Part shown: positions 5,900 to 9,781 of the stretch, piece by piece
How positions within the stretch are numbered: position 1 is the stretch's first letter
How the letters are laid out: every line of letters starts with the position of its first letter
Source of the DNA: Bacteroidales bacterium
GTDB lineage: Bacteria > Bacteroidota > Bacteroidia > Bacteroidales > JAGONC01
NCBI GenBank assembly: GCA_028716265.1
Contig: JAQUQD010000013.1
Location: forward strand, 1 to 52,451
DNA length: 52,451 nt
Reading direction: 5' to 3'
The notes under the pieces: model-generated
Databases searched by the model: none
The model's input: only the letters and a program-made list of their open reading frames with translations
What the model was told of the DNA's origin: nothing
Position numbers and translations under genes: made by a program

Positions 5900-6109
5900 T
5901 CAGTTCTCTCTCTTTTTGTTCTCACAGTCAGGTCCCCCATCTCCGTGACCGCAACTGCATGCGGTTCTATCCCCAGTCGTGGGATCAACTGAGCTGCAGC
6001 TTTTTTCGAACTGTCCTGTTTTTTTTACGAACATTTTGATGGCGATACCGGCGAAGGCCAGGGCCAGTAGAATGATGGTTATTAGAAGTACTTTAAACAT
6101 TATGTGCAA
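5900..6109 (-). CDS. small four-cysteine membrane protein, possible NQR maturation factor
   Basis: This is a protein of at most 69 residues: one N-terminal membrane helix (about 5-26), then a short soluble tail with four cysteines at 38, 51, 53 and 62 (C-x12-C-x-C-x8-C) and a charged end. The ATG three codons in (base 6100) is an equally good start. It lies tail-to-tail with apbE, 20 bases away. The layout (one helix plus a C...CxC...C tail, encoded beside nqr/apbE) recalls NqrM, the proteobacterial factor needed to mature the iron-sulfur centre of Na+-NQR. I did not see clear sequence identity to NqrM, so a maturation or metal-handling role is inference from context and cysteine pattern. Confidence 0.7.
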   Translation of the reverse strand: MHIMFKVLLITIILLALAFAGIAIKMFVKKTGQFEKSCSSVDPTTGDRTACSCGHGDGGPDCENKKREN

Positions 6110-6185: not shown

Positions 6186-7658
6186 CTACAGAAGTTTCAG
6201 TTGTCCGTATTTTCCCGACAAACGTTTGTATTTTTTATTTCTTAGGCCAATATACCCTTTTTTGAAGAATACAAAATTGCTAGACCTGTCCAGCTTCAGG
6301 TTGGAAAGGATATTCTTATCGCTGGTATCCCTGAACTGAACCACATAGTTGGTCACGTCAGATATGTGACGTGGCTCATTGTATTGGGACAGGTATTCCT
6401 GCACCAGTTCCTTGATGGTTCCGGTTTTGACCTCCTTCCATTTTTTCAGTGAATAGGTGCTGGTCTTCCCGATTGCAATGATCTCGTCGATGCTAAGGAT
6501 GGATGACCGGAGGGATTCGATGTTATGGGGGGTTTTTGGTGTGATGGCCGCCAGCTCCCTGTGGATGTCGTAAAGTTGCATCGGCTTGCCATGCTTTGTT
6601 AAAATATCGATGATGTATTCCGAAAGCTTGACAAGTGTATTGCGGGCGATCACCAGCTGGTTATCGGACGAGATCTCGATCTGAAGCTCTTCCTGGGCGA
6701 TATGGATGCATACAGGGCGGATGCGGTCGAGCAGGGAAGGATCATCCTCTTTCAGAAATGGCCGCAGAAACTGATCCAGGTCTAGCCGATAGGTTCGATC
6801 AATCCGTTTGTTCTTCCGCTGATAAAGGTCATCGTAAAACGATACGAAATCGAAAATATGAAAATTTTCGTTCCTGATCAGGTAATAATTCTTGTAGGTG
6901 AACTCTTTATCCTGAAAGGTACTGTAACTTTTGGACAGGAGGATTGAAAAAACGAGGGTATAGAACTTGGGTGTGAGATTAAGCTCTTCCTTTGCGTTGA
7001 TCCTGTCAGCGACCGAACTGTCGATCAGTATGAAATCGCTTTTACTGCTGAGCTTATACTGAAAATAGCTTTTCAGGTAATCCTGTTCCCTGGTGAACCG
7101 GGTTATGGTATCTTCGATCTTGTAGGGGATCAGCTGTGAGATCTGACGGATCCGTTCTCGGGTGATATGATAAAGATCACCGATGGACTGAAGAGTCATC
7201 TTGGTCTTGTCGCCAAAGTATCCAAAATTATGTTCAAAGATGAAGTATTCCCTTTCGTTTAATATTTCCCTGAATATCAGCAGAAAGTATCTGAAGAAAG
7301 GAAAACGTTTTTCAAAAAAGTCGTTTCGGTACACCTCAGTTTTTGCGGAGGGGATCCCAAAATTTTCAAAACAGAAGAATTTGAATTTTTCAAACGTAAT
7401 ATCTTCATCGTTGACTTCCAGATCCTCGATGCTCACATGATACTCCTCAATATACTTCCTGGCCAGAGCCATAAGCTCCAGGTTGGTTTTTTCGCCGCAA
7501 TTCCGGATCTTTTTAAAGTTCTCGTTCTTCAGATAATACAAAAGAATTTTGTAAAGAGTTTCCAGAGAGCCTTTGATACAAACGTTCTTGGTTCGTTCCG
7601 ACAATCCGGCAAACTCTTTCAGTTCCTCGATGTGATAGTTAGTAAGTGTCGTGGCCAT
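6186..7658 (-). CDS. alpha-CTD / sigma-4 / HARE-HTH hybrid protein
   Basis: This 490-residue cytoplasmic protein has no signal or membrane segments. Residues 15-68 resemble the helix-hairpin-helix of the RNA polymerase alpha C-terminal domain (LSERTKNVC ... FKKIRNCGEKTNLELM). Residues 133-180 look like sigma-70 region 4: LNEREYFIF, then TLQSIGDLYHITRERIRQIS. Two similar C-terminal segments, about 345-407 and 413-475, have the HARE-HTH winged-helix pattern (HGKPMQLYDIHREL ... TYSLKKW; YNEPRHISDVTNYV ... FFKKGYIGL) known from the RNA polymerase delta subunit and chromatin proteins. Sigma region 2 is absent, so it is not a sigma factor by itself. It is single-gene, with a clear TAnnTTTG promoter upstream. 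A role in transcription or DNA binding is inferred from the domains. Confidence 0.75.
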   Translation of the reverse strand: MATTLTNYHIEELKEFAGLSERTKNVCIKGSLETLYKILLYYLKNENFKKIRNCGEKTNLELMALARKYIEEYHVSIEDLEVNDEDITFEKFKFFCFENFGIPSAKTEVYRNDFFEKRFPFFRYFLLIFREILNEREYFIFEHNFGYFGDKTKMTLQSIGDLYHITRERIRQISQLIPYKIEDTITRFTREQDYLKSYFQYKLSSKSDFILIDSSVADRINAKEELNLTPKFYTLVFSILLSKSYSTFQDKEFTYKNYYLIRNENFHIFDFVSFYDDLYQRKNKRIDRTYRLDLDQFLRPFLKEDDPSLLDRIRPVCIHIAQEELQIEISSDNQLVIARNTLVKLSEYIIDILTKHGKPMQLYDIHRELAAITPKTPHNIESLRSSILSIDEIIAIGKTSTYSLKKWKEVKTGTIKELVQEYLSQYNEPRHISDVTNYVVQFRDTSDKNILSNLKLDRSSNFVFFKKGYIGLRNKKYKRLSGKYGQLKLL

Positions 7659-7713: not shown

Positions 7714-7744
7714 CAAATATAATAAATAAGAATACGGAAAGCAA
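7714..7744 (-). promoter_or_regulatory. promoter of the alpha-CTD/sigma-4 hybrid gene
   Basis: Read on the minus strand: TTG (7742-7744), 20 bases, then TATATTTG (7714-7721), a full match to the Bacteroidota -33/-7 consensus. It lies 55 bases upstream of the ATG at 7658. Confidence 0.6.
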
Positions 7745-7801
7745 GAACTCTTTTGTTAAAAGAATAAAAATTCTTTATGATCCATTTTTTCTTCATGTAA
7801 A

Positions 7802-8572
7802 TCAGCTGCGGAATGCATAGCAAACGATTGAACATGCCTGGGCAGCATTGAGTGATTCAGGTGCAGCAGGGGAGATTCCTGCATGGGGTGGGAAGGATGG
7901 AATGGTCAGCCGGACCTGGACATAGGGCAGCAATTCTGGTGAGATCCCGGTTGATTCATTTCCCAGGAGAATGATTCCCGTTTTGCCCAATGGTACCTGG
8001 TGTATGTCCATCCCATCCAGCAGGCATCCGTAGACGGTCAGCCCGGGATTGTGAAGGTCGAGAAAATCCTTCAGCACGATGGAATGCACATGGACACGGG
8101 CAAGGGATCCCATGGATGACTGGACGACCTTCGGATTATATGCATCGACGCAGCCTGTGGAGCAGAGGAGATGACGGATACCGAACCAGTCAGCCGTACG
8201 TATGATCGTTCCGAGGTTTCCTGGATCACGGATCTCGTCAAGCATAAGGATAAGTTCACCGGCAAGAGCTGATGGGACAAGCACGGAGTCGGGTATTTCA
8301 ACCAATGCCAGGACATCCTGGGGAGTGACCAGGGCACTGACTGCTTTCATTTCTTTTTCAGTGATGGTGCTCCAGCGGTCAGCGGCTTTCCCGAGATGAT
8401 CGGAATAGCGTGCTATCCAATCCTGCGTGGCATAGATGCTGTGGATGGCAAGTGAACTCTCGAGGAGATCCAGAACGGTCTTGGTACCCTCTGCAATGAA
8501 CAATCCTGACGTTTCCCTGAATTTGCCGGTTTTCAGTGACCGGATGAACCGGATGGAGGATTTGGAAAGCAT
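7802..8572 (-). CDS. TrmH/SpoU family RNA 2'-O-methyltransferase
   Basis: This enzyme would transfer a methyl group from AdoMet to a ribose 2'-OH in rRNA or tRNA. The 256-residue protein has an N-terminal substrate-binding domain (RSLKTGKFRETSGLFIAEG) and a SPOUT knot. Motif 1 is DEIRDPGNLGTIIRTADWFG, motif 2 is IILLGNESTGIS and motif 3 is IPSF...ESLNAAQA. Motif 3 carries an insertion-like PPHAGISPAAP between the IP and ESLN halves. The exact target nucleotide cannot be told from the sequence. It lies downstream of the rpsF-rplI operon but is separated from it by a terminator, so it probably has its own promoter. Confidence 0.88.
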   Translation of the reverse strand: MLSKSSIRFIRSLKTGKFRETSGLFIAEGTKTVLDLLESSLAIHSIYATQDWIARYSDHLGKAADRWSTITEKEMKAVSALVTPQDVLALVEIPDSVLVPSALAGELILMLDEIRDPGNLGTIIRTADWFGIRHLLCSTGCVDAYNPKVVQSSMGSLARVHVHSIVLKDFLDLHNPGLTVYGCLLDGMDIHQVPLGKTGIILLGNESTGISPELLPYVQVRLTIPSFPPHAGISPAAPESLNAAQACSIVCYAFRS

Positions 8573-8654: not shown

Positions 8655-9104
8655 TTATTCGGCAACAACCTCAAAGTTCAGTTTAACCTTGATATCCTTA
8701 TGAAGGTTGATCATCGCTTCATAGGTCCCTAATTCTTTGATACTATCGCCGTCGATGCTAATCTTTTTCCGGTCGATTTCATAGTTGAACTGTTCCTTGA
8801 TTGCCTCAGCGATCTGAATGGCATTTACCGAACCGTATATTTTCCCTGTGGGGGCAGCTTTGGCACCGATCTTCACGGTAAGGTTACCGAGCGCTTTCGC
8901 CAGCGTGTCGGCGTCCATACGTGTCTTGTTTTCCTTAAAGGCTTTTTGTTTTTGGATTTCGGCCACCATCTTTTTGTTGGATCCGGTGGCAGGAATGGCA
9001 AAACCTTTAGGGATCAAATAGTTTCGCCCATATCCATCTTTTACGTGGATGATCTCGTTCTCATAACCCAGGTTGGGTATGTCTTTTTTCAGAATAACTT
9101 CCAT
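8655..9104 (-). CDS. rplI: 50S ribosomal protein L9
   Basis: L9 binds 23S rRNA near the L1 stalk through its N-terminal domain. At 149 residues it has the normal family length. The signature start MEVILKKDIPNLGYENEIIHVKDGYGRNYLIPKGFAIPA is clear, followed by the long connecting helix and the C-terminal domain. It is the last gene of rpsF-rpsR-rplI, ten bases after rpsR, and is followed by a strong terminator. Standard and intact. Confidence 0.98.
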   Translation of the reverse strand: MEVILKKDIPNLGYENEIIHVKDGYGRNYLIPKGFAIPATGSNKKMVAEIQKQKAFKENKTRMDADTLAKALGNLTVKIGAKAAPTGKIYGSVNAIQIAEAIKEQFNYEIDRKKISIDGDSIKELGTYEAMINLHKDIKVKLNFEVVAE

Positions 9105-9114
9105 AGCATCCTCC

Positions 9115-9387
9115 TTATTTTAAAAGATCAGCAACATAGGGGAGTAAAGCCAGGTGCCTGGCTCTTTTGATCGCCTGAGCGACTTTCTTCTGGTACTTGG
9201 TAGAGGTGCCGGTTATCCTACGCGGAAGTATCTTGCCCTGCTCATTGACAAATTTCAGCAGGAAGTCGGCATCTTTATAGTCGATGTACTTGATCCTGTT
9301 CTTCTTGAAGCGGCAGTACTTCTTTTTTTTGATATCAACCGCAATGGGGGTTAGATATTTGATTTCTGTATTTCCCTGATTTGTCAT
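9115..9387 (-). CDS. rpsR: 30S ribosomal protein S18
   Basis: S18 pairs with S6 in the platform of the small subunit. The 90-residue protein shows the family core: [60 protein letters not shown]. It is in the middle of the S6-S18-L9 operon, 10 bases upstream of rplI and 19 bases behind rpsF, the typical bacterial order. No anomaly was seen. Confidence 0.98.
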
Positions 9388-9406: not shown

Positions 9407-9781
9407 TTACGCCTCTGCATTTTCTTCAGTTTTAGGAAGTTCCGCTTCTTTCTTGCTGCGTCTTTTCTCATTATACACAACGGCGTGTTTATCGAGCCTG
9501 ACCGTGAGGTAGCGGATGACACGTTCATCGCGTTTGAAGTTGGTCTCGAGCTCTTTTACGATGGCTACATCGCTTTTGAACTCGATCAGATGGTAAAATC
9601 CGGTGGATTTTTTCTGTATGGGATATGCCAGTTTACGCAATCCCCAGTAGTTCTCATGGATGATCTCTGCACCCTTTTCTTTGAGAAAACTACTGAATTT
9701 AAGAACCGTTTCCTTCATCTGTTCTTCAGACAAAACGGGAGTCATAATGAAAACGGTTTCATACTGGTTGATCATCTTCAA
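9407..9781 (-). CDS. rpsF: 30S ribosomal protein S6
   Basis: S6 is the partner of S18 on the 16S rRNA platform. It has 124 residues and begins [42 protein letters not shown] is the central family stretch, and an acidic tail (PKTEENAEA) closes the protein. It is the first gene of the operon; a consensus promoter lies 40 bases upstream. Autoregulation through an S6:S18 mRNA leader is known in many bacteria, but I did not identify the structure here. Confidence 0.98.

Follow-up and report, generated by a model that had tools for sequence, protein, structure and literature searches.

Bacterial HARE-HTH proteins that combine features of the RNA polymerase (RNAP) alpha subunit with those of sigma factors were reportedly described by Aravind and Iyer in 2012 (Cell Cycle 11:119), and they reportedly carry the same three domain types as the 490-aa protein analyzed here, which is encoded in a 52,451-nucleotide stretch of Bacteroidales DNA (the window). 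The domain architecture is therefore probably already known. What appears to be new is the division of the family into short and long forms, a fixed locus beside a ribosomal-protein operon, the retention of DNA-contact residues, and an operon in which DndC is replaced; we found no description of any of these in the searchable literature.

Several better-known proteins resemble parts of this architecture. The recognition motif TRERxRQ is identical in region 4 of RpoD/SigA, but the 490-aa protein lacks region 2 and hence any core-binding or -10 melting domain. RNAP delta (RpoE) resembles its first winged helix but consists of one HARE-HTH domain and an acidic tail; the 490-aa protein ends in a basic sequence (KKYKRLSGKYGQLKLL), carries a pair of winged helices in its C-terminal part and has further modules besides. 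The defence-linked protein MzaA (NF041931, PADLOC) shares a sigma-4 domain and is the best NCBIfam match of the 490-aa protein (E 4.5e-7), though the match scores 29 bits where the cut-off is 800 and covers only about 40 residues, at the extreme C terminus of the 726-position model. PglW of type 2 BREX likewise has several wHTH modules behind an RNAP alpha-CTD-like domain, but differs in its kinase, its NERD nuclease (in type 2 BREX) and its inactive STAND ATPase, with no sigma-4 domain described (PMC12839542).

Module architecture and DNA-contact residues

We confirmed that the 490-aa ORF joins an alpha-CTD-like helix-hairpin-helix, a sigma-70 region 4 and a pair of HARE-HTH-like winged helices (Table 1). 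The preliminary description of this DNA had the module order and coordinates right, and the modules it named stand, but it overlooked the middle alpha/beta region, which may hold two more winged helices, judging from its secondary structure and a match to SelB.

The Pfam model Sigma70_r4 matched residues 133-173 at E 3.5e-5 and 23.7 bits, just below the curated cut-off of 24.1 bits. Homologues L008, L010 and L013 score above it with the same model, 28 of the 33 aligned homologues match (E <= 0.01), and the sigma-4 portions of many NCBIfam sigma models matched the 490-aa protein as well. The putative alpha-CTD and HARE assignments come by way of homologues. RNA_pol_A_CTD gave no direct Pfam match in the 490-aa protein; it reached 38.8 bits in homologue L016 (cut-off 23.8) and matched 4/33 aligned homologues (Pfam, E <= 0.01). 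When aligned by hhalign, the N-terminal family profile matched the alpha-CTD of the genome's own RpoA (E 4e-5, 31% identity, probability 70), and its best match among PDB sequences was RNAP alpha, weak at E 0.034. HARE-HTH had no Pfam match in the 490-aa protein and none over threshold in the search of its own genome; it scored 26.9 bits (Pfam cut-off 25.9) at 347-392 of homologue L012, a region with an equivalent in the 490-aa protein, and matched 5/33 aligned homologues (Pfam, E <= 0.01). The NCBIfam RNAP-delta model matched two stretches of the 490-aa protein, including residues 345-386, at E 8.7e-5, below the model's cut-off, and a profile of the two winged helices retrieved no delta chain from PDB sequences, giving only unrelated weak matches. 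Each of the three Pfam domains expected from the preliminary description thus exceeds its curated cut-off in some homologue, with sigma-4 alone near the cut-off in the query.

That description also proposed that a sigma-2 core-binding domain is missing, and the profile scans agree, with neither Sigma70_r2 nor any other sigma-2 family found in the 490-aa protein or in any of the 33 homologues. The RNAP alpha N-terminal assembly domain had no match in the same set of proteins, and a separate, complete RpoA is encoded elsewhere in the genome. No profile scan of the 490-aa protein found an enzymatic domain.

A confident AlphaFold2 model built from the family alignment (mean pLDDT 88.5, pTM 0.73) agrees with the expected structure, showing both the sigma-4 and the winged-helix folds. 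Foldseek placed a SelB tandem winged-helix fragment (1lva) first and also returned Thermus sigma-A region 4 on -35 DNA (1ku7) and RNAP delta (9a6y), each of the latter with probability 1.00, with no match of the model reaching E 0.001. VIA-align superposed the first C-terminal winged helix on Bacillus subtilis RNAP delta (2m4k, 9a6y) over 65 residues with an rmsd of 2.1-2.3 and a Z of 8.2-8.4, a middling score that other winged helices equal. Whole-model Foldseek matches to sigma-A over ~240 columns had an rmsd near 23 and were discounted as fold matches.

We compared contact residues using the E. coli RpoA and RpoD numbering. The alpha-CTD residues R265, N268, N294 and G296 correspond to R22, N25, N53 and G55 of the 490-aa protein, and K298, S299 and E302 to K57, T58 and E61. 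Short forms of the family (see below) retain nearly all of these: R22, G55 and K57 in 20/20, N25, N53 and T58 (as T/S) in 19/20, and E61 in 18/20. Sigma-70 R584, E585, R586, R588 and Q589 correspond to R167, E168, R169, R171 and Q172; these positions, together with the equivalent of T583, are invariant in all 20 short forms, and E168, R169 and R171 are invariant in 13/13 long forms as well. The genome's own RpoA and RpoD carry equal contact residues, except for a serine in place of T58, and the TRERxRQI motif is common to this RpoD and the 490-aa protein. Since the base-reading residues are invariant, we favour sequence-specific reading of -35-like and UP-like DNA. The earlier suggestion that the protein touches promoter DNA at several points gains support at the sequence level from the conserved contact residues in both polymerase-derived modules.

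Table 1 Features of the window and of loci encoding long relatives
Feature	Position	Strand	Basis or remark
Complete ORF, short form of the alpha-CTD/sigma-4/HARE family	6186..7658	(-)	490 aa, ATG to stop
Alpha-CTD-like helix-hairpin-helix, residues ~5-73	7440..7646	(-)	Homologue domain matches, contact residues, hhalign
Sigma-70 region 4, residues ~133-190	7089..7262	(-)	Pfam and Foldseek
Recognition helix TRERIRQI, residues 166-173	7140..7163	(-)	Equivalents of sigma-70 contact residues
Middle alpha/beta region, residues ~200-338	6645..7061	(-)	Secondary structure and SelB match
First HARE-HTH-like (delta-subunit-like) winged helix, residues ~340-408	6435..6641	(-)	Profiles and VIA-align
Second winged helix, residues ~412-475	6234..6425	(-)	AlphaFold2 model, VIA-align
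Predicted own promoter, TTG-N20-TATATTTG	7714..7744	(-)	Some 86 to 56 bases upstream of the start codon
Stretch like TTTAACAAAA-AGTTCTTGCTTT	7740-7770		Around and upstream of the -33 box
SpoU-family RNA methyltransferase	7802..8572	(-)	Conserved upstream neighbour
rplI	8655-9104		Further upstream of spoU
rpsR	9115-9387		Further upstream of spoU
rpsF	9407-9781		Further upstream of spoU
69-aa ORF	5900-6109	(-)	Downstream
Four-gene operon without DndC	L050:7984-14086		
Four-gene operon without DndC	L051:8749-14797		
Four-gene operon without DndC	L090:4786-10890		
Four-gene operon without DndC	L098:9687-15521		
Four-gene operon without DndC	L156:1-5683		
Long-form neighbourhood with HATPase_c_3	L101:3712-11102		806-aa long form
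Long-form neighbourhood with HATPase_c_3	L104:9509-17272		866-aa long form
Wadjet-like genes beside a long form	L056:1203-9919		

A short clade beside ribosomal-protein genes

The family has two forms, of which the short one is about 490 aa long with one alpha-CTD. In a tree of 44 proteins, a single branch (99/100; 98% of bootstrap trees) separates the short forms from all the others, though the bootstrap was not fully settled and several long-form rows sat on long branches. Proteins from one taxonomic family group together in this tree, a pattern that fits vertical descent. The short form was present, in one copy each, in all five genomes of the window's family. Either form was found in 39/393 sampled genomes of the order, 11/295 of the class and 5/395 of the phylum, counts that are lower bounds since few candidates were scored per genome. 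Searches of phage and viral contigs for the family gave no match, and a plasmid search gave one weak partial match, from Segatella copri.

In 17 of the 19 assessable loci, the short-form gene comes directly after spoU, with both genes on one strand, and rplI, rpsR and rpsF precede spoU wherever the contig reaches far enough. Its promoter appears to be its own: a Bacteroidota-type TAnnTTTG box occurs within 140 bases upstream of 18/20 short forms, compared with a mean of 3.0 and a maximum of 7 in shuffled sequences. The gene is under strong purifying selection (dN 0.056 versus dS 0.82-1.35 against the nearest relative). The stretch resembling TTTAACAAAA-AGTTCTTGCTTT near the -33 box recurs in the close relatives L039, L040 and L042 and is a candidate operator, which may serve autoregulation. 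The 69-aa ORF downstream encodes a small, membrane-anchored, Cys-rich protein with no Pfam match.

Long relatives and the DndC position

Most complete long forms are about 590-870 aa; an additional region usually separates alpha-CTD from sigma-4, and some long forms have a C-terminal helicase-associated domain. Unlike the short clade with its fixed locus, they are scattered. At five loci (L050, L051, L090, L098 and L156), three genes come after the long gene in the same orientation, encoding in turn a conserved ~60-aa protein, an ABC ATPase of DndD-like type and a fused DndE::HerA, and a sixth locus of this kind (L155) is interrupted by the contig end. Nine comparison loci (L157-L165) have a DndC-like gene in that position in 9/9 cases and no alpha/sigma/HARE gene; they come from the same order or class, their DndE::HerA is only about 30% identical, and one of the nine was profile-checked. 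The ~170 bases that separate the long gene from dndD are not a promoter region, since they encode the conserved small protein. The ATPases of the cassette are DndD-like, because the CxC zinc hook that PbeC-type ATPases carry is absent from them. A 2024 survey of Dnd systems reports DndDE pairs without DndC, as well as small proteins in CxC-type systems, and a text search of the survey found no alpha-CTD/sigma-4 protein (PMC10853773).

Other long forms adjoin HATPase_c_3 proteins (L101, L103, L104) or HsdR (L054), and at L056 Wadjet-like DUF3584 and DUF7281 genes, together with RmuC, lie directly upstream of a divergent long form. The L101 and L104 neighbourhoods have in common HATPase_c_3, a ~655-aa radical-SAM-like protein and upstream neighbours of ~450-550 aa, and are possibly another conserved system. 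For many long forms no defence gene is evident nearby; the defence association is real for the Dnd-like cassette and is not universal among long forms.

The preliminary description had suggested a DNA-modification link. This is supported for the long relatives that stand in operons with DndD and DndE::HerA, but not for the gene in the window, which has housekeeping neighbours: no DndD-DndE pair lies beside the ORF, and DndE::HerA had no match in the window's genome or its four family members. As a tentative proposal, the long relatives could belong to an undescribed DndD-DndE::HerA system, in which the alpha-CTD/sigma-4/HARE protein and the ~60-aa protein substitute for DndC, the sulfur-transferring component. 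Promoter-like DNA, and not phosphorothioation, would then be what a DNA-scanning ATPase is aimed at or regulated by, and the short form would be a related housekeeping branch of the alpha-CTD/sigma-4/HARE protein.

Proposed role and competing readings

We give about an even chance to the view that the 490-aa protein is a stand-alone chromosomal reader of promoter-type DNA that modulates transcription. Its identity as a sigma factor was rejected on the missing region 2, and without sigma-2 it should not initiate transcription itself. The alpha-CTD module would read an A/T-rich (UP-like) minor groove and the sigma-4 helix a -35-like (Bacteroidota -33) element, with the tandem delta-like winged helices giving extra contacts to DNA or a partner; the protein would then modulate transcription at a set of promoters, where it might block or compete with the holoenzyme or bind the upstream promoter alongside it. 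We infer DNA binding, promoter targets and the sign of regulation alike.

The window's genome has one copy of this housekeeping gene, with no defence genes around it, so we favour a transcription modulator over a defence factor. Sigma-4 and alpha-CTD folds can serve as generic DNA-binding modules in the defence proteins DndH, BrxL and PglW, with no polymerase link, and the long relatives that head the five DndC-replacing operons, or adjoin HATPase/radical-SAM, HsdR or Wadjet-like genes, would suit a role in an anti-invader or DNA-modification system, as its component for DNA targeting or sensing that works in trans with partners encoded at other places in the genome. Our analysis makes such a role unlikely for the short form, given a clade that is separate from the long forms, vertically inherited and placed among ribosomal-protein genes, in genomes of the window's family where DndE::HerA was not matched.

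It is also quite unlikely that the protein is a polymerase-bound factor whose sigma-4 module sits on the beta flap or displaces sigma-4 while the other modules redirect polymerase. The delta-like winged helices and the retention in the short clade of the sigma-70 F563 equivalent (F/Y in 19/20) and E555 equivalent (20/20) are consistent with polymerase binding, but a plain sigma-4 fold would keep these flap-site residues too, and the protein has no sigma-2, no alpha-NTD and, given its basic C terminus, no delta-type acidic tail. A chromosome-organising (nucleoid-type) protein with little sequence preference might be expected to carry many DNA-binding modules and no enzyme, and to occur in one copy in every genome of the window's family, but the invariant base-reading residues point to sequence-specific reading, and we consider this role very improbable.

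If the favoured reading, a promoter-type-DNA reader, is true, a protein that has the polymerase's upstream promoter-reading surfaces and lacks its core-binding surface would compete for promoters, or mark them, in a general way, which is of interest for gene control in Bacteroidota. The alpha-CTD/sigma-4/HARE module in the DndC position suggests, in turn, that defence systems may choose or regulate their targets by promoter recognition.
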